DNA from: an uncultured Pelagibacteraceae bacterium
GTDB lineage: Bacteria; Pseudomonadota; Alphaproteobacteria; Pelagibacterales; Pelagibacteraceae
Length of the DNA: 64,000 nt
Reading direction: 5' to 3'
NCBI GenBank assembly: GCA_902591415.1
Contig: CACJAU010000002.1
Location: forward strand, 1-64,000
The stretch's first letter is position 1. Each line of letters opens with the position of its first letter. This document shows, in pieces, positions 4,289 to 19,103 of the stretch. Under the pieces are notes generated by a model, which was not told where the DNA came from, made no database searches, and was given only the letters and a program-made list of their open reading frames with translations. The translations under genes and the position numbers were made by a program.

Positions 4289-5032
4289 ATGAACATTTTA
4301 AAGCAGCTACTAAAAAAAAATAAAGTTTATTTTTTTAATTACGACAAGAATTCATTTTTTGAGGGGTTATATAGATTTTTTGGGATATTAATAGCGCCTA
4401 TGCTTATTAAAATTAATCCAAATTTCATATCACTTTTAAGCTTGTTAAGTGGCTTTATTGGTTTTGTTCTTTATATTTTTTTTTCAATTAAAATTATTTA
4501 TATTGTGATTTTTTTTTTATTTTCGTTTATTCTCGATTTTACAGATGGATTAATCGCTAGATTTAATAATAAAACATCATTTTATGGAAGATTTATTGAC
4601 GGTTTGTTTGACATTTTAGTAATAAGCTTTCTACATATTGTTTTTTTAATTTATTTAATTGAAAATGAAATAGTTCAAACAAAAAGTATATATTTCATAA
4701 TTATCTTAGTTGTAATATTTTTGGTACCAATACAACATTTATTGCTTGATAGATATGCAGCAATTGCGAGGTGGTGTAATGATCTAGGTGCAAAAAAAAA
4801 AATAAAACCTTACCTTAGAGATGATTTTCTTGGAGGTGTAACTAAATTTTTATTTGATATCCAGCATTTATGTATATGGTTAATATTATTTAATTATTAC
4901 ATAGATAATAATTTTTTAATTACTTTATTTTTTTCTGCTTCAGGAATAGCATCTATTTTAAATCTAACAATCTATATATACTTAAGTAAAAAAAATTTTT
5001 CAGGAGAGGAAAATCCATTAGATAATAATTGA
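4289..5032 (+). CDS. CDP-alcohol phosphatidyltransferase family protein
   Basis: DFTDGLIARFNNKTSFYGRFIDGLFD matches the DG-x2-AR-x8-G-x3-D-x3-D motif; multiple TM helices. Confidence 0.8.
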   Translation: MNILKQLLKKNKVYFFNYDKNSFFEGLYRFFGILIAPMLIKINPNFISLLSLLSGFIGFVLYIFFSIKIIYIVIFFLFSFILDFTDGLIARFNNKTSFYGRFIDGLFDILVISFLHIVFLIYLIENEIVQTKSIYFIIILVVIFLVPIQHLLLDRYAAIARWCNDLGAKKKIKPYLRDDFLGGVTKFLFDIQHLCIWLILFNYYIDNNFLITLFFSASGIASILNLTIYIYLSKKNFSGEENPLDNN

Positions 5033-5048
5033 TTAAAATAATTTTAAT

Positions 5049-5561
5049 ATGATTTTTTGGTTTACAGGTTTGTCAGGAAGTGGAAAAACAACATTTTCTA
5101 AATATTTAATAAAAAAAATGAACAAAAAGATTAAAAAAAAGATTATTCACATAGATGGAGATAGTTTTAGATTAATATTTAACGATCTAGGTTACAGTAC
5201 AAAAGATCGAATTAAAAATTCAGAGAGAGTGTGTAAATTAGTAAATTTTTTAAATAAAAATGGCAAGTTTTTAATTATAGTCTCTATGGTTTCAATTTCT
5301 TCAAAATGGTTAAAATGGATCAGAAAAAAAAATAGTGACTATTATCAATTTTTCATTGACGTTCCTATAGGTATTTTAAAAAAAAGAAATATTAGAAACA
5401 TTTATAAAAAAAAAAATATTGTTGGAGTACATATAAAATATGAAAAACCCAAAAAAAATTATTTTGTTTTTTATAATAATTTTAAAAAACCTTTCTTAAA
5501 AAAATCAATATTAGAAATATTGAATGATAAAAAAATCAAGATTGAATTTAAAAGATTATGA
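5049..5561 (+). CDS. APS-kinase (CysC)-like P-loop kinase, divergent; candidate cytidine diphosphoramidate kinase (Cj1415-like)
   Basis: MIFWFTGLSGSGKTT; HIDGDSFRLIFNDLGYSTKDRIKNSERV; GVHIKYEKPKKNYFV. Confidence 0.7.
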   Translation: MIFWFTGLSGSGKTTFSKYLIKKMNKKIKKKIIHIDGDSFRLIFNDLGYSTKDRIKNSERVCKLVNFLNKNGKFLIIVSMVSISSKWLKWIRKKNSDYYQFFIDVPIGILKKRNIRNIYKKKNIVGVHIKYEKPKKNYFVFYNNFKKPFLKKSILEILNDKKIKIEFKRL

Positions 5562-6520
5562 CATTACCAAAACTTTATAAAAAGAATTTTTTTGATAACG
5601 TGGTTGTAGTGACTGGTAGTCTTAATTCAGGAAAAAGTATGGTTGCACCAATTGTTTCCTCATTAAAGAAAGTTGAGCATCTGAGAAAATTGATAGAGGT
5701 TGATCAGATACTTCATTTAACAAATTTAAAAAAAATCAAAAGAGAATCAGCAGTTTTTTTAATTAGACATTATCTTGATAAAAGTTTTTACGAGCAGCTT
5801 ATTGGTAGAAATATTAATTTCAGAATTGGTGATGAAACAAGCGTATTTACTTCTAAAAATCCTAGTGAATTAATTGATCGAATTTTTATTAAAAGAGGAG
5901 AGCATTTAATTAAAAAACATAAAAAAAACAAAACAATTTTTTGTATGGATACTCATGATGGAATGATGCTCTATCCTATTTGGCGTGATGTAAATAGAAA
6001 ATATAAATTTATAAACATCTTTAGAAATCCAATCGAAAATGTAAATGGCTGTTATAATATTGGGCAAGGGAAAATTGAAAAAATTATTTTTAATGAGATC
6101 ATTATGTTTAAAAAAAATAAAAATATTTTTCCGTTGTATTACTTAAATAAATATAAAGATTATCCAAAAACAAATCCAATGGATAGGGTAATCGAAGAAG
6201 TTTTGTTTTGCTTAAAACAGGAGTATGCAAATTATAAAAAATATAAAAACGATAAAAATTGTCTTTTTTTTGAAAATGAAGATTTTGCCGTCAACTCGCA
6301 TAAAAATGTTAAGAAAATTTGTAAATTTTTAAAAACTGATAAAAGTAAATTTACAAAAACAATTATGAAGAGAGAAAGATGCCCAAGAATTATCGATCCA
6401 GAAGTTTACAAAGAAAAATATAAAAAAATAAAATTTCTATCTACAAGAAAATCATTTCAAAAATTATTAGGTTTTGAAAAACTTTTTTATATTCGAAAAA
6501 AAGAGACAATAGATAAATAA
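5558..6520 (+). CDS. Sulfotransferase-fold P-loop protein
   Basis: VVVVTGSLNSGKSMVAPIVSS near the N-terminus; KYKFINIFRNPIENVNGCYNIG resembles the sulfotransferase 3'-phosphate-binding region; 4-nt overlap with the CysC-like gene. Confidence 0.5.
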   Translation: MTLPKLYKKNFFDNVVVVTGSLNSGKSMVAPIVSSLKKVEHLRKLIEVDQILHLTNLKKIKRESAVFLIRHYLDKSFYEQLIGRNINFRIGDETSVFTSKNPSELIDRIFIKRGEHLIKKHKKNKTIFCMDTHDGMMLYPIWRDVNRKYKFINIFRNPIENVNGCYNIGQGKIEKIIFNEIIMFKKNKNIFPLYYLNKYKDYPKTNPMDRVIEEVLFCLKQEYANYKKYKNDKNCLFFENEDFAVNSHKNVKKICKFLKTDKSKFTKTIMKRERCPRIIDPEVYKEKYKKIKFLSTRKSFQKLLGFEKLFYIRKKETIDK

Positions 6521-8855: not shown

Positions 8856-9368
8856 ATGAAAAATTATAAAAAAAATTTAAAATCATTTATTAAAAATAAA
8901 TACCAGGAAGCAAACTATCATAACAAAAATTTTTTAAACGATTTTTTTAATTATAGATCTAACTTTGAAAATCAAATTAAAAAACAATCTTTTGTTTCGA
9001 AAGAAAATATTAAAAAGGATTTAACTCTTTTTCGGTTAAAAAATTGTTTTGAAAAAAAAAAAATTAATCAAAAAGAAATAGAAACCTTTTACAAAAAATT
9101 TGAATTTAATTTTCAACTTAAAGAAAGATATAATAAAAAATTTGTCCTACAATCCTCTAAAGAAACTTCATTTAAGACATATATCTATCTTGGGCATTTA
9201 ATATTAAAATTAAAAAGAATTGATATTTTTCAAAAGTTAAACATTATTTTAAAAATTTTAGATAAGCTGAGTATAAATAAAGGGAAGTACAAGTATTATA
9301 ATTATGTTTTGATTAAAAATTTGATCAAAGAAGAGAAAAATATTATTAAAAGAATTCTTAGACAATGA
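8856..9368 (+). CDS. Hypothetical Lys-rich protein
   Basis: Intact ORF between the PEP-synthase-like gene and the formyltransferase-like gene, overlapping the latter by 4 nt. Confidence 0.5.
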   Translation: MKNYKKNLKSFIKNKYQEANYHNKNFLNDFFNYRSNFENQIKKQSFVSKENIKKDLTLFRLKNCFEKKKINQKEIETFYKKFEFNFQLKERYNKKFVLQSSKETSFKTYIYLGHLILKLKRIDIFQKLNIILKILDKLSINKGKYKYYNYVLIKNLIKEEKNIIKRILRQ

Positions 9369-10009
9369 TTAGTAATTTATCAGTAATAATTAGCAACAAC
9401 CTAAGATCTCTTAAATATTTGAAAGTATTCATTAAACTTAAAATAAAACCAAAAGAGGTGATACATGTTAATGATAACAAAAATCATTACATAAAAAAAA
9501 GAATTTTAAAGATTTTAAAACAAAAACTTATTAAAAAAAAAAGTTTTTCTTCGAACAGGCTCAGTAGCAATGTAGCAAGATATATATTAAATCGTAAAGA
9601 AAAAAACTTTATACTATCACTGCCACATGGTGAAATAATAAAAAATAAAAGACTTTTAAAAACTAAAAATTTAATTCATTTTCACCCCGGAAGATTGCCT
9701 CTTTTTAGGGGCGCTACTTCTATATATTACAGTTTACTAAGAAAAAAGGAGATTTGTTGTAGTGCAATTATAATGTCTTCAAATATTGATGGAGGTGACA
9801 TTTTGTTTTGTAAAAAATTTCCATTTCCAAAAATAATAAAAGATATTGATAGAAATTATGACATTAAAATAAGAGAAATTTGTTTAGAATATTTAATTAA
9901 AAATTTGAAAAAATTAAAAGCTAGACCACAAAAAAAGATCAAAAAATTACACTACTACCTCGCTCACCCAATCATAAGAAAGTTAGCAATTAATAAAATG
10001 AAAGCTTAG
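9365..10009 (+). CDS. Formyltransferase-family protein (methionyl-tRNA/sugar formyltransferase-like fold)
   Basis: NLIHFHPGRLPLFRGATSIYYSLLRKKEICCSAIIMSSNIDGGDIL contains the N...HPG...RG...D pattern. Confidence 0.75.
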   Translation: MISNLSVIISNNLRSLKYLKVFIKLKIKPKEVIHVNDNKNHYIKKRILKILKQKLIKKKSFSSNRLSSNVARYILNRKEKNFILSLPHGEIIKNKRLLKTKNLIHFHPGRLPLFRGATSIYYSLLRKKEICCSAIIMSSNIDGGDILFCKKFPFPKIIKDIDRNYDIKIREICLEYLIKNLKKLKARPQKKIKKLHYYLAHPIIRKLAINKMKA

Positions 10010-10826: not shown

Positions 10827-11435
10827 ATGAAAAATATATTAATCAATCCCAAAATCTCAATAAATATTAAAAGGAAAGAGATTAATGATCAAATTGATCA
10901 TGCTTTAATTAGCTGGTTAATAAAAAACTCTTTTAATCCAATAGTAATTCCTAACAAATTATTAAGTCTCCCAAAGAAAAAATTGTACAAATTTTTAAAA
11001 TCGCTGAAGCCGCGAGGCATTATATTATCGGGTGGTAACGAAGTTAAAAAAAAAAGCCTTAGGTATCAATTTCAAAGTTATTTACTAGACTACTCCTTTA
11101 AATATAAATTACCAATACTAGGAATTTGTCAAGGGATGCAATTCATGGGTGTTAGATTTGGTAGTAGATTGATTAAAGTAAAAAATCATGTAAAAAAAAA
11201 TCACAAGTTAATAAATTTTACGAAAGAAAAATTTCCAAAAAAATCAAATAGTTATCATGATTTTTCGTTAGAAAACTGTCCAAAAAATTTTTTTATTACG
11301 ACCAAATCTATTGATGGAAATATTGAGTCTATAAAACATAAATTTTTTCCGTGGGAAGGCTGGATGTGGCATCCTGAAAGAGATAAAGTTATTGATGAAA
11401 TTAATAACAAAAGACTTAAAAAAATTTTTAATTAA
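10827..11435 (+). CDS. Class I glutamine amidotransferase / gamma-glutamyl hydrolase (peptidase C26-like); candidate Cj1417-like hydrolase
   Basis: GIILSGGNE; nucleophile elbow GICQGMQFMG; C-terminal GWMWHPERD. Confidence 0.8.
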   Translation: MKNILINPKISINIKRKEINDQIDHALISWLIKNSFNPIVIPNKLLSLPKKKLYKFLKSLKPRGIILSGGNEVKKKSLRYQFQSYLLDYSFKYKLPILGICQGMQFMGVRFGSRLIKVKNHVKKNHKLINFTKEKFPKKSNSYHDFSLENCPKNFFITTKSIDGNIESIKHKFFPWEGWMWHPERDKVIDEINNKRLKKIFN

Positions 11436-12389
11436 ATGAAAAAAAAAACTCTTTACAAAATTAATACCTCAAAGTTATGGAACACATATAATTATGTAAA
11501 AAAATACGATAAATTTAAATACTCTAAAGAGGATGGAATTACATATTACATGAACTCGAGAAGAGATGCTGTTCTTAAATATCTCAAAAGTTTGGAATTA
11601 GGAAAAAAAATTACAATTCTTGAATTAGGATTTGGAGCAGGACAAAATGCAAAATATTTTATTAAACAATGCAAAAAATTTTATGGAATTGATGTTTCTG
11701 CCCCATTAGCTAAATTCGCTAGAAAAAAAAATAAATCATCAGTTAAATCCGGCAAGGCAAAATTTTTAGTGGGATCAATGGACAAAAAACTTAAATTAAC
11801 AAATCAGTCAATTGATGTAATTATCATTGTTGGAGCTCTACAGTATGTGATAGACCCAAACTTTTGCATGAGAGAATGCAGAAGAGTATTAAAAAAAAAT
11901 GGTTATTTAATTATCGCCCAATCTAATACGTTTCAAATTAATGAAATGATACACCCAAGAAAATTTTTGATAAACTTTTCAAAATTTTTAATTAACGAGC
12001 ATCATCAATATTCTCATTCTGATACTCTCAGATCTTTATTGCTTGAAACAAAGCTAAGAAAGTATTTTAAAAAATTTAAAAATTCTTGGTGGATGAATAG
12101 TTGGCTATTAAAAACAGGATGGAACGATGTCTGGAAGTTTGAAACCAATAGACGGTTACTCTCATATGGAAGACTTAAAATGATACTCACCAAAAATAAG
12201 TTATCTATCTACCGTTCGTGCAGTTTACCTTTTTTTTATAATAATAAAAATATTTTTACTAAATTAACTTTTCCAATTTTAGATAAAATATTAATTTTTT
12301 TAAATAAAATTTTCATTTTCTCCTTTTTTTTAAAATTTATAGGTGGAGCAAATATTTTCCTATGTAAAAAAATTGGAAACAAAAAATAG
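11436..12389 (+). CDS. Class I SAM-dependent methyltransferase
   Basis: ILELGFGAGQNAKYF...FYGIDVS...SIDVIIIVGALQYVIDPNFCMRECRRVLKKNGYLII. Confidence 0.8.
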   Translation: MKKKTLYKINTSKLWNTYNYVKKYDKFKYSKEDGITYYMNSRRDAVLKYLKSLELGKKITILELGFGAGQNAKYFIKQCKKFYGIDVSAPLAKFARKKNKSSVKSGKAKFLVGSMDKKLKLTNQSIDVIIIVGALQYVIDPNFCMRECRRVLKKNGYLIIAQSNTFQINEMIHPRKFLINFSKFLINEHHQYSHSDTLRSLLLETKLRKYFKKFKNSWWMNSWLLKTGWNDVWKFETNRRLLSYGRLKMILTKNKLSIYRSCSLPFFYNNKNIFTKLTFPILDKILIFLNKIFIFSFFLKFIGGANIFLCKKIGNKK

Positions 12390-13414: not shown

Positions 13415-14137
13415 ATGATTAAAGGAATAATTTTAGCAGCAGGAAGAGGATCTAGATTAGGACATTTAACCAAAAAAAAACCCAAGTCATTTAATAAGAC
13501 TAATAATAAAAGATATATCGATATTGTTATAGATAATTTTAAAGAAAATAATATCAATGATATTAATATAGTCGTGGGGTATAAAAAAAATTTATTTAAA
13601 AAATTTCCTCAAAAAAAAATTTTAAATAATAAATGGAAATCTACTAATATTTTTTATTCTTTATCTAAAGCAACAAAAATATTGCACGATAATATGTGTA
13701 TTATTTCATACTCTGACATTATTTACGATAAAGAAGCATTAAAACTCCTAATTCAAGAAAAAGGAGATATAATAATTTTAAATAACGTAAATTGGAAAAA
13801 GATTTGGAAATTGAGATTTAAAAATCCTTTGAAGGATTTAGAAAATTTTGATTATAAAGGAAAATATTTGACAAGGATTGGAGGTAAAGTAGAAACCATG
13901 TCATCCGTCAAAGGTCAGTTTGCTGGTCTTTTTAAGATCTCACCAAAAGGCTGGAAAATAATTTCAAAATTTATACAAATTGAAAAGATAGATATTAATA
14001 AGATTGATATAACATCTTTTTTTTCAAAATTTGTTAAAAAAAATCAAAAAATAGTTAAAGTGGTTAATTATAATAAAATGTGGTTTGAAGTAGATACCAT
14101 AAAGGATCACAGGTTGTTAAATTCAAAAAATTATTAA
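13415..14137 (+). CDS. Sugar-nucleotidyltransferase-like protein; candidate CTP:phosphoglutamine cytidylyltransferase (Cj1416-like)
   Basis: GIILAAGRGSRLGHLTKKKPKSF; ISYSDIIYD; VKGQFAGLFKISPKGW. Confidence 0.75.
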   Translation: MIKGIILAAGRGSRLGHLTKKKPKSFNKTNNKRYIDIVIDNFKENNINDINIVVGYKKNLFKKFPQKKILNNKWKSTNIFYSLSKATKILHDNMCIISYSDIIYDKEALKLLIQEKGDIIILNNVNWKKIWKLRFKNPLKDLENFDYKGKYLTRIGGKVETMSSVKGQFAGLFKISPKGWKIISKFIQIEKIDINKIDITSFFSKFVKKNQKIVKVVNYNKMWFEVDTIKDHRLLNSKNY

Positions 14138-15146: not shown

Positions 15147-16151
15147 ATGAATAATAAAATTATAATAATCGCCGAAGCCGGTGTTAATCATAACGGCAAA
15201 TTATCTCAAGCTCTTAAGATGATTGATGTAGCGTCTAAAGCAAAAGCAGACTTTATAAAGTTTCAGACATTTGATCCAAAATCAGTAACTACAAAAAATC
15301 TAGGATTAGCTAATTATCAAAAAAAAGGGTCCTCTGATAAAACACATTTTAAACTTCTAGATAAACTCAAGTTATCAAAAGATGATTTTATAAAAATAAT
15401 AAAAAGATGTAAAAAAAAAAAAATTAAATTTTTATCAAGTCCATTTGATATTAATAGCATAAAACTTTTGAAAAAATTAAGAGTTAAAACATTTAAAATA
15501 CCATCAGGGGAAATAAATAATGTACCTTATTTAGAATATATTGGTTCTTTAAAAAGAAATATAATTTTATCTACTGGTATGAGCGATCTGGCAGAAGTTA
15601 AAAATGCGATTAATATTTTGGTAAGAAATGGAATGGAAAAAAAAAATATTTCTATTTTACACTGTAGCACCGAGTATCCTGCAAATATTGAAAAATTAAA
15701 TTTGATGTCGATAAGGTACTTAAAAGATAAATTAAAATTAAATGTGGGTTATTCCGATCACAGCATTGGTAGCGAGGCATCTTTAATTTCTCTAGCCTTA
15801 GGGGCAAAGATTTTTGAAAAACATTTCACATTAAATAAATTTGCAAAAGGTCCAGATCACAAGGCAAGTTTATCTCCCAATGAATTGATAAACTATGTAA
15901 AAAAATTAAATGACTTTAAAAAAAGCATAGGTAGATATCAAAAGAAACCTTACAAAGAAGAATTGAAAATAGCTAAAATCGCCAGAAAACAAATTGTTGC
16001 GTTATCAAAAATTAAACCAGGTGATAAATTTTCAGTCAAAAACATAACCACTAAAAGAGCTAGACAAGGTATACCCGCATCACAATGGAATAAAATCTTA
16101 GGAAAATATTCTAAGTTTTATTTTGCTGAAGATCAAAATATTAAGGTTTAA
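15147..16151 (+). CDS. legI: N-acetylneuraminate/legionaminate synthase
   Basis: IIAEAGVNHNGKLSQALKMIDVA; FKIPSGEINNVPYLEYI; LSTGMSDLAEV; GYSDHSIGSEASLISLALGAKIFEKHFTL; C-terminal SAF domain. Confidence 0.9.
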   Translation: MNNKIIIIAEAGVNHNGKLSQALKMIDVASKAKADFIKFQTFDPKSVTTKNLGLANYQKKGSSDKTHFKLLDKLKLSKDDFIKIIKRCKKKKIKFLSSPFDINSIKLLKKLRVKTFKIPSGEINNVPYLEYIGSLKRNIILSTGMSDLAEVKNAINILVRNGMEKKNISILHCSTEYPANIEKLNLMSIRYLKDKLKLNVGYSDHSIGSEASLISLALGAKIFEKHFTLNKFAKGPDHKASLSPNELINYVKKLNDFKKSIGRYQKKPYKEELKIAKIARKQIVALSKIKPGDKFSVKNITTKRARQGIPASQWNKILGKYSKFYFAEDQNIKV

Positions 16152-16154
16152 ATA

Positions 16155-17306
16155 ATGAAAATTTGTATTGTTACAGGTTCTAGAGCTGAGTTTTTTATCT
16201 TAAAAAATTTAATAAAAAAATTTAATATATCAAAATTTTTTAAGGATCACGTGGTTATCACAGGCTCCCACTTATCTAAAGATTTCGGAAACAATTTTAA
16301 TCAAATTTCTAGCTCAAAAATAAATGTCGTGAGAAAATTAAATCTCAAAATAAATAATGATAATGAAAGTGATATCTCTCAATATTTTTCATTGGGTGTA
16401 AAATTGTTTTCAAATACTTTAAATAAAATTAAACCAGATTTATTAATGATTTTAGGTGATCGATATGAAATTTATGCAGCAGCAGTTGCGGCTTGTTTTA
16501 ATCGCGTTCCCATAGCGCATATACATGGCGGCGAAAGAACCGAGGGAGTAATTGACGAAGCATTAAGACATTCTATAACAAAGTTATCACATATACATTT
16601 TGTTTCTACAAAGGAGCACTATAATAGGGTCAGGCAACTTGGTGAAAATAAAAATTATATATGTAATATAGGTTCCTTAGGCGTAGAGTCACTTAACAAG
16701 TCTAAGTTTCTAAGTAGAAATCAAATTGAAAAAAAATTAAAACTGAAATTTCGTAAAAAAAATATACTTATTACTTATCATTCAGAAACACTTAAATCCC
16801 GAAGTCAAAATAAGAAAAATATAATCACAATTTTAAATAGTTTAAAAAAAATGAAAAATACGACTTTAATTTTTACAATGCCTGGTGCTGATAGTAATTT
16901 CAAAACTATAATTAGTGAAATAAAAAAATTTTTAAAAAAAAATAACAATAGTTTTTTATTTAAATCACTAGGGGATGAGCTTTATTATTCAATTTGTAAT
17001 CAGGTAGATTTTATGATGGGAAACTCGTCGAGTGGAATTATTGAAATGCCATCTTATAAAAAAGGAACAATAAATATCGGTAATAGACAAAATGGAAGAG
17101 TTAAAGCAAAAAGTGTAATAGATGTTGATTGTAATGAGAAAAAAATTAAGTCAAAAATTAACTTTTTATATTCAAAAAAATTTAATCAAAATTTAAAAAA
17201 AATCAAAAATCCATATGACGGTGGAAAAAGTTCTGATAAAATTATAAAATTCCTGAAAAAAGTAAATCTGAAGGGTATCTTAAATAAAAAATTTATTGAC
17301 TATTAA
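16155..17306 (+). CDS. legG: UDP-GlcNAc 2-epimerase (hydrolysing), NeuC/LegG family
   Basis: GSRAEFFILKNLI; ILGDRYEIYAAAVAACFNRVPIAHIHGGERTEGVIDEALRHSITKLSHIHF; GNSSSGIIEMP. Confidence 0.9.
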   Translation: MKICIVTGSRAEFFILKNLIKKFNISKFFKDHVVITGSHLSKDFGNNFNQISSSKINVVRKLNLKINNDNESDISQYFSLGVKLFSNTLNKIKPDLLMILGDRYEIYAAAVAACFNRVPIAHIHGGERTEGVIDEALRHSITKLSHIHFVSTKEHYNRVRQLGENKNYICNIGSLGVESLNKSKFLSRNQIEKKLKLKFRKKNILITYHSETLKSRSQNKKNIITILNSLKKMKNTTLIFTMPGADSNFKTIISEIKKFLKKNNNSFLFKSLGDELYYSICNQVDFMMGNSSSGIIEMPSYKKGTINIGNRQNGRVKAKSVIDVDCNEKKIKSKINFLYSKKFNQNLKKIKNPYDGGKSSDKIIKFLKKVNLKGILNKKFIDY

Positions 17307-18360
17307 AATGCAAAATAAAAACAAACTTTTGATAAGCGAAAACGAAACTATTAAAAAAGCTATAATCAAAATTAAAAAGAATGCAACTCGTACTGTGGTG
17401 GTAGTTAATGATAAAAATCTATTACTCGGGACTTTGACTGAGGGAGATATTCAAAAAGCTCTTTTAAAAAATGTTAAAATAGGCTCAAGTATAAAACCTC
17501 TGTATAATAATTCACCTAAAAAAATTAATATCAATAATATAGATTTAGATAAAATTTCAAAAATTTTTGTTAAAGGTCAGTACGGCGCTCTACCAGTTGT
17601 TGACTCGAAGAATATAGTACAAAAAGTTATAACCTGGCCTCAGATCTTCAATACGAAAAAAGTAAAATTAAAACTTAAAAATATTGATGTTGTTATCATG
17701 GCAGGCGGAAAAGGTGAAAGGCTCAAACCTTACACAGAAATTTTGCCTAAACCTTTAATTCCAATTAATTCAAAACCTATGCTAGAACATATAATTGATA
17801 ATTTTACCTATTTTAATTTTAAAAAGTTTCATTTAGTTTTAAATCATCAAGCAGAATTGATTAAATCTTATTTTCGATCGAAGAAAAATAATTTTAAATT
17901 AAATTATGTAAAAGAGCCAAAAACTCTCGGAACAGCCGGGGGAATATATTTTATTAAAAAAATTCACTCGGATGATTTTATCATTACGAATTGTGATACT
18001 TTATTTAAAATTGATTACAATAAATTTTATGATAATCACAAAAAAAATAATAATTTTATAACTTTGGCAGTTTCTAAAACGCAACATGTTTTTCCTTACG
18101 GTTTTTGCAAACTCAAGGCAAATAATTTAATTTCAATTGATGAAAAACCAAAATTTAATTTTATAGCTAACACAGGCTTATACTTTGTAAAAAAAGAAAT
18201 AATAAAATTGATTCCAAAAAATAAAAAATTTGAAATGACTGACTTAATTGAAAAATGTATAAAAAATAAATATAAAACAGGAGTTTATTTAATACCTTCA
18301 AATTCTTGGACCGATCTTGGCCAGTTGTCAGATTTGCAGAAATCATTCAAAGGTATTTAA
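17296..18360 (+). CDS. ptmE: CBS-domain plus nucleotidyltransferase fusion, PtmE-like
   Basis: CBS pair VVVNDKNLLLGTLTEGDIQKAL...YGALPVVDSKNIV; then VVIMAGGKGERLKPYTEILPKPLIPINSKPMLEHII. Confidence 0.85.
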   Translation: MTIKMQNKNKLLISENETIKKAIIKIKKNATRTVVVVNDKNLLLGTLTEGDIQKALLKNVKIGSSIKPLYNNSPKKININNIDLDKISKIFVKGQYGALPVVDSKNIVQKVITWPQIFNTKKVKLKLKNIDVVIMAGGKGERLKPYTEILPKPLIPINSKPMLEHIIDNFTYFNFKKFHLVLNHQAELIKSYFRSKKNNFKLNYVKEPKTLGTAGGIYFIKKIHSDDFIITNCDTLFKIDYNKFYDNHKKNNNFITLAVSKTQHVFPYGFCKLKANNLISIDEKPKFNFIANTGLYFVKKEIIKLIPKNKKFEMTDLIEKCIKNKYKTGVYLIPSNSWTDLGQLSDLQKSFKGI

Positions 18361-18362
18361 TT

Positions 18363-19103
18363 ATGAGTATATTATGCACCATTTGTGCTCGCGGAGGATC
18401 AAAAGGTCTTTCTAATAAAGCATTAAGAAAAATTAATAATAAGCCTCTGATTTCTTACACAGTTAGACAAGCAGTAAAATCAAAAATTTTCGACGAAATA
18501 ATTGTTTCGACTGACTCTAAAAAAATTCAACGTGTAGCTAAAAATTATGGAGCCAAATCTTGGTTTCTACGACCAAAAAAATTTGCATCAGACAGTAGTT
18601 CAAAGTTATTAGCTATCAGACACGCTTTATCTGAGTCAGAAAAATATTTTAATAAATCTTTTAAAATTTGTGTTGATCTCGATATAACTGCCCCATTAAG
18701 AACAATTAATGATATAAAAAAAGCAATAACAAAATTTAAAAAAAATAAATTTAGCAATCTTATTTCAGTATGTGATGCAAAAAAAAATCCATACTTCAAT
18801 ATGGTCGAAAAAAAAAAAAATCAATTTAAATTAATTAAATACACAAAAAATTCAAGTAAATTTTCTAGAAGTTATACTTCGGATTTTGATATTGTTAGAC
18901 GACAAGATGCACCAAAAGTTTATGAAATGAATGCATCTATTTATATCTTTTCAAGAGAAGCCCTTTTTAAAAAAATGAAGTTACTTAACAAAAAAACTTC
19001 AATATTTCTAATGCCAAGAAACAGATCAATTGATATTGATGATATTTATGATTTAAATTTAGTAAAATTACTTATTAAAGATGATAAAAAATTATTTAGA
19101 TAA
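18363..19103 (+). CDS. legF: CMP-nonulosonate (legionaminate) synthetase, NeuA/LegF family
   Basis: MSILCTICARGGSKGLSNKALRKINNKPLISYTVRQA; the ORF-track start at 18306 lies inside ptmE, so the Met at 18363 is preferred. Confidence 0.85.
   Translation: MSILCTICARGGSKGLSNKALRKINNKPLISYTVRQAVKSKIFDEIIVSTDSKKIQRVAKNYGAKSWFLRPKKFASDSSSKLLAIRHALSESEKYFNKSFKICVDLDITAPLRTINDIKKAITKFKKNKFSNLISVCDAKKNPYFNMVEKKKNQFKLIKYTKNSSKFSRSYTSDFDIVRRQDAPKVYEMNASIYIFSREALFKKMKLLNKKTSIFLMPRNRSIDIDDIYDLNLVKLLIKDDKKLFR

Follow-up and report, generated by a model that had tools for sequence, protein, structure and literature searches.

The closest described system makes O-methyl phosphoramidate (MeOPN) in Campylobacter jejuni (Cj1415-Cj1418). 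It comprises a glutamine kinase, a cytidylyltransferase, an amidate hydrolase and a CysC-like 3'-kinase. Genetics identified Cj1421 and Cj1422 as the transferases (PMC3907429, PMC9561416). These had originally been annotated as glycosyltransferases (PMC9561416, PMC13317227) and, for 81-176, are 592 and 603 amino acids in length (PMC13317227). Even so, a June 2026 Biochemistry paper on C. jejuni describes details of phosphoramidate transfer to capsule sugars as 'currently unclear' (PMC13276843). Our literature search found no paper tying the phosphoramidate pathway to sulfotransferases, and nothing on phosphoramidate in SAR11. Note that coverage of subscription journals was thin, and a prior proposal may exist.

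Here, we consider a 64,000-nucleotide stretch of DNA from an uncultured Pelagibacteraceae bacterium, referred to as a whole as the window. The closest records to the source genome are SAR11 single-cell genomes, and the genome is consistent with Pelagibacterales. Homologues of the four C. jejuni enzymes are predicted in one surface-glycan cluster of the window (Table 1). Judged by their profile matches, the cluster neighbours would make up a Campylobacter-type phosphoramidate pathway, with the hydrolase, cytidylyltransferase and 3'-kinase assignments being probable. The best NCBIfam match for the CysC-like kinase is PRK05541 (110.9 bits, below the cut-off of 127). Further along, at 15147-19103, are NeuB/NeuC/NeuA-like nonulosonic-acid genes, assigned by eye and by cross-matches to related loci.

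Table 1. Coordinates of genes in the cluster, and of motifs in the 320-aa protein, by position in the window.
Feature	Coordinates	Strand	Basis
CDP-alcohol phosphatidyltransferase-family (CDP-OH) membrane protein, directly upstream of kinase	4289..5032	+	PF01066, E 7e-12; six other GlnK loci
CysC-like kinase, 170 aa; probable cytidine diphosphoramidate 3'-kinase, Cj1415 type	5049..5561	+	PF01583 (APS_kinase), E 6e-23
Sulfotransferase-fold protein, 320 aa; candidate phosphoramidyl transferase	5558..6520	+	Relatives, profile, predicted structure
P-loop / 5'-phosphate-binding loop, residues 20-27, GSLNSGKS	5615..5638	+	G25, K26 the same in all 14 family members
Motif R84-xx-N87-x-R89-xx-D92-x-T94 (RNINFRIGDET), particular to the 320-aa protein's family	5807..5839	+	Family alignment
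H133, invariant, catalytic-His-like	5954..5956	+	Family alignment; inferred from SULT motifs
3'-phosphate-binding (3'-PB) motif R156-N-P158	6023..6031	+	Family alignment, PDB profile
R277, invariant C-terminal Arg (CPR)	6386..6388	+	Family alignment
L-glutamine kinase (GlnK), Cj1418 type, PRK05849	6522..8840	+	NF004508, 741.8 bits (cut-off 501)
orf170, all-helical uncharacterised family tied to pathway	8856..9368	+	Recurrence in GlnK loci; predicted model
Formyltransferase-fold protein, partner of orf170 in many GlnK loci	9365..10009	+	PF00551
Class I GATase; probable gamma-glutamyl-CDP-amidate hydrolase, Cj1417 type	10827..11435	+	Best NCBIfam NF045546, 88 bits (below cut-off 250)
SAM methyltransferase; possible O-methylation of phosphoramidate or sugar	11436..12389	+	PF08241; recurs in related loci
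Nucleotidyltransferase; probable CTP:phosphoglutamine cytidylyltransferase, Cj1416 type	13415..14137	+	PF12804/PF00483 (fold level); recurs with GlnK

The original prediction was that the 320-aa protein, encoded by a gene translationally coupled to the CysC-like kinase, has a sulfotransferase fold and is a candidate phosphoramidyl transferase. Both open reading frames were found as described. They share 4 nt, an ATGA at 5558-5561 (context 'ttATGAca') that supplies the kinase stop and the transferase start. Downstream, a gap of 1 nt separates the transferase stop from the ATG of the 772-aa glutamine kinase gene. The order CDP-OH, kinase, sulfotransferase is found in two related loci, with overlaps between the last two genes of 4 nt (L032) and 8 nt (L034). 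Hence, the overlapping kinase-sulfotransferase arrangement is conserved among relatives. A search for phage relatives of the 320-aa open reading frame found none.

By itself, the 320-aa protein has no Pfam or NCBIfam match and so the fold cannot be read from standard annotation. However, Sulfotransfer_1 is matched by 15 of 18 aligned relatives (E<=0.01). The match in locus L058 scores 31.9 bits, above the 22-bit cut-off. When a 14-sequence family profile was compared with PDB sequences, the matches were mostly sulfotransferases, of which there were dozens (best E 3e-6, SULT1C2). Two parts of the family are aligned in this way, namely the RNP motif for the 3'-phosphate and, further on, a segment of helix and strand. 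An AlphaFold2 model, made with 14 sequences as input, had a pLDDT of 87.9 and a pTM of 0.88. All 50 Foldseek matches listed for this model, at probability 1.00 and with E values as low as 3e-7, have the sulfotransferase fold. They include retinol dehydratase, a member of that fold, and have modest TM-scores of about 0.3-0.5. Taken together, the profiles and the predicted model indicate that the 320-aa protein has a sulfotransferase fold, as the original prediction held.

Key residues were then compared across the 14 family members. K26, R84, D92, H133, R156, P158 and R277 are invariant. A 3'-phosphate site was specifically looked for; these residues include both Arg and Pro from the 3'-PB motif, though its Ser (+8) is replaced by Gly164 in the window protein (8 of the 14 members have Ser). 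H133 is 23 residues N-terminal of R156, which we take to be close to the distance between the catalytic His and 3'-PB Arg of SULTs. The alignment shows that the P-loop, catalytic-His-like and 3'-phosphate-site residues are otherwise retained. It could be argued that the 320-aa protein is instead a P-loop protein that has degenerated or acts in another way, perhaps as a kinase or nucleotide-binding accessory, with no transferase activity. The absence of a Pfam match of its own, a P-loop of GxxxSGK form and the missing 3'-PB Ser are all compatible with this. Set against them are the invariance of H133, R84, D92, R156 and R277, and the high-confidence sulfotransferase-like model, which leave this explanation barely credible.

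Our attention turned to the distribution of the family. It is present in 13 of 298 Pelagibacterales genomes. GlnK is found in 7 of these 13, compared to 15 of the other 285, if fragmentary GlnK matches are counted. Leaving out the source genome, the figures are 6/12 carriers versus 15/285 non-carriers (Fisher p 4e-5). The six nearest relatives outside the window, with 40-80% identity, are all in GlnK loci. Often, the closest relatives are tandem pairs of sulfotransferase-fold genes within such loci, recalling the two C. jejuni transferases. Distant relatives (25-30% identity) occur in six genomes with no detected GlnK, and five of these six also lack a nearby CysC-like kinase.

More widely, a scan of our genome collection identified 65 GlnK loci, in several phyla. 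Sulfotransferase-domain genes, of at least three subfamilies, occur in 21 of the 65. Note that the gene table for GlnK loci read only the GlnK strand, undercounting genes on the opposite strand (e.g. L061), and the count of 21 was completed beyond that table. For about two thirds of the loci, no sulfotransferase-like gene was found inside the flank read. Therefore, other transferases must exist. Various further genes were seen in these surroundings. A second sulfotransferase-like family (427 aa, Sulfotransfer_3) sits beside the kinase or GlnK in several SAR11 phosphoramidate loci, L035 (14643-15926), L023, L040 and L046, accompanied in L035 by a pyruvate-kinase-like protein. In the phosphoramidate clusters of L022, L039, L041, L053 and L056, the gene immediately after that for the CysC-like kinase encodes a GDSL/SGNH-hydrolase-like protein of approximately 400 aa. 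Phosphoramidate-type clusters are also carried by plasmids (L130, from Vibrio alfacsensis, L131 and L133). The Vibrio plasmid cluster has cysDN adjoining the GlnK gene and a CDP-glycerol-phosphotransferase-like gene, and an Azospirillum plasmid cluster encodes an 846-aa kinase fusion together with two sulfotransferase-domain genes.

A different pattern of recurrence involves orf170. The pairing of an orf170/190 protein with a formyltransferase-fold protein adjoins the kinase in about 25 GlnK loci, from several phyla. Besides the window (8856-10009), examples are L038, L042, L047-L051, L058, L059, L061, L065, L066, L072, L073, L076, L082, L083, L088, L091 and L094; in L072, both protein types fall within one open frame. 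For orf170/190, there was no Pfam match, and the predicted fold had no convincing match in the PDB. We dropped orf170 as a transferase candidate, since its all-helical model resembles nothing convincingly in that database. Possibly, the pair provides an extra step of phosphoramidate metabolism, outside the described Campylobacter pathway.

In Verrucomicrobiota, the operon order is GlnK, hydrolase, cytidylyltransferase, kinase, sulfotransferase. Here, in at least four genomes, the last two are fused, directly after GlnK, hydrolase and cytidylyltransferase. Hence, APS_kinase and Sulfotransfer_1 (E about 1e-21) domains form one protein in L092 (13752-15233), L079, L167 and L168; L093 contains the greater part of such a protein. 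Other genomes of the same taxonomic order (L162, L163, L165 and L166) have kinase and sulfotransferase genes that are separate but adjoining, some with a methyltransferase-like open reading frame in between. Among the regions of this second set, all six that reach more than 1.2 kb past the kinase contain a sulfotransferase. The fusion of genes for consecutive steps is a standard sign of a common pathway. Fusions inside putative phosphoramidate operons argue strongly for the transferase reading, going beyond the evidence for the original prediction.

The fusions also bear on whether another cluster protein might be the phosphoramidate transferase, with the 320-aa protein an accessory. Candidates would be the CDP-alcohol-type protein in the window and, elsewhere, LIC12162-family or CDP-glycerol-phosphotransferase-like proteins. 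The CDP-OH-type gene is directly upstream of the kinase, and is found in six other GlnK loci. LIC12162-family proteins (587-639 aa) are encoded near GlnK in L039-L041, L046 and L048, and their size resembles that of the two MeOPN transferases of C. jejuni, with 592 and 603 aa (PMC13317227). Plasmid loci contain Glyphos_transf-like genes. However, no such candidate is fused to the 3'-kinase, and sulfotransferase-domain genes are commoner in the vicinity of GlnK than any one of these types. Moreover, a 3'-phosphate handle would be expected for the donor of a sulfotransferase-type enzyme, not for CDP-alcohol enzymes. For the 320-aa protein, we consider an accessory role very unlikely. Note that the LIC12162 family (TIGR04331, ~600 aa) also occurs near GlnK in L024, there adjoining a relative of the 320-aa enzyme; its members are possible alternative phosphoramidate transferases. 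No match to the family was found on the + strand of the window between 1 and 26000.

If the 320-aa protein is a transferase, what is the donor? One explanation is that AprAB converts sulfite and AMP to APS, which is then phosphorylated by the neighbouring kinase. The 320-aa protein would be an ordinary sulfotransferase, using the resulting PAPS to sulfate the same glycan independently of the phosphoramidate genes. The sulfotransferase fold and 3'-PB residues are consistent with this. In a tree of 86 kinases, a split supported at 97/89 divides CysC/CysNC from GlnK-linked kinases, and the latter include both the window kinase and the fused ones. The assimilatory side comprises CysC/CysNC from E. 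coli, Pelagibacterales and Verrucomicrobiota, together with two GlnK-linked kinases from Cohnella. The GlnK-linked side also takes in five further Pelagibacterales kinases. The position of the partner kinase gives an indirect indication, too, that the 320-aa protein may lie outside any clade of true PAPS-dependent enzymes. Both the clade of the window kinase, and its stable coupling to GlnK, hydrolase and cytidylyltransferase, count against a role in sulfation.

Genes for sulfate activation tell a mixed story. The original prediction correctly noted that cysD, cysN and cysH are absent from the window. This extends to the source genome (80% complete), where neither PF01747 (ATP sulfurylase) nor CysD was detected; the sole PF01507 match, considered as a PAPS reductase, was ruled out because it is GuaA. 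Similarly, PF01747 was found in none of the 13 Pelagibacterales genomes carrying the 320-aa enzyme family, and a survey of 28 genomes that carry either the enzyme or GlnK revealed no CysD. The lack of a detected sulfurylase in enzyme carriers is a further point against sulfation. Conversely, the source genome encodes full-length AprA (APS reductase subunit A; G000:C1:131707-133503), so APS, and hence PAPS, could arise without a sulfurylase; the original prediction did not consider AprA. In addition, Verrucomicrobiota with kinase-sulfotransferase fusions do possess CysD. AprA is nevertheless near-universal, scoring above the cut-off in 26 of 28 related genomes tested, with or without the 320-aa enzyme, and does not track the enzyme. 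The objection that complete PAPS synthesis elsewhere in the genome explains the gene pair is therefore weakened only. We regard sulfation as unlikely and, on the sequence evidence, PAPS is disfavoured as the donor.

Our preferred interpretation, to which we assign a probability of roughly 70%, is that the 320-aa protein transfers phosphoramidate, not sulfate, from 3'-phospho-CDP-NH2. The fold, operon linkage and kinase fusions support this as the leading hypothesis; we infer the activity itself, including donor, acceptor and chemistry. Points that count against it are AprA in the source genome, the distant relatives in genomes with no detected GlnK, the many GlnK loci with no sulfotransferase-like gene in the flank read, the missing 3'-PB Ser of the window protein, and the much larger proteins used for this step in C. 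jejuni. Briefly, glutamine would be converted to 3'-phospho-CDP-NH2 by GlnK, the cytidylyltransferase, the hydrolase and the CysC-like 3'-kinase, all encoded nearby. The 320-aa enzyme would bind this donor and attach the phosphoramidate to a surface glycan, at one of its hydroxyl groups. Because NeuB/NeuC/NeuA-like genes are nearby, the acceptor glycan probably contains nonulosonic acid. R156 and R277, forming the classic PAP site, would bind the 3'-phosphate, and K26 of the P-loop would bind the diphosphate end. H133 would act as the general base and 3'-phospho-CMP would be released.

We also think it fairly probable that sulfotransferase folds of at least two subfamilies, in several phyla, have been recruited for phosphoramidate transfer from 3'-phospho-CDP-NH2, a PAPS-like donor. 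In Verrucomicrobiota, donor maturation and transfer would be united in one protein. If so, P-N group transfer would be a reaction not previously known for the sulfotransferase fold, the reason for the 3'-phosphate of the donor would be explained, and a modification known from Campylobacter would probably be common among marine bacteria and in further phyla. The candidate is small, probably soluble and of a well-understood fold. Together with the natural kinase-transferase fusions, this makes the transfer step directly testable.

Three comparisons place the window protein among known systems. First, it differs in length from the C. jejuni transferases; Cj1421 and Cj1422 are ~600 aa long, and the window candidate, with its sulfotransferase fold, has 320 aa. 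The window cluster also differs from the C. jejuni MeOPN system in having the additional orf170/formyltransferase pair, and the hosts are marine. Second, the fold, P-loop, His and 3'-phosphate-site positions are common to the window protein and cytosolic or tyrosylprotein sulfotransferases (SULT1C2, TPST2; Sulfotransfer_1). Identity to the PDB matches listed is, however, only about 9-16%. Unlike those enzymes, the window protein has the extra invariant R84/D92 motif, is encoded in a phosphoramidate operon and belongs to a genome without a detected sulfurylase. Third, the Verrucomicrobiota fusions and the window pair are alike in both predicted activities and in operon context, but the former are joined covalently and have a sulfotransferase domain from a different subfamily.
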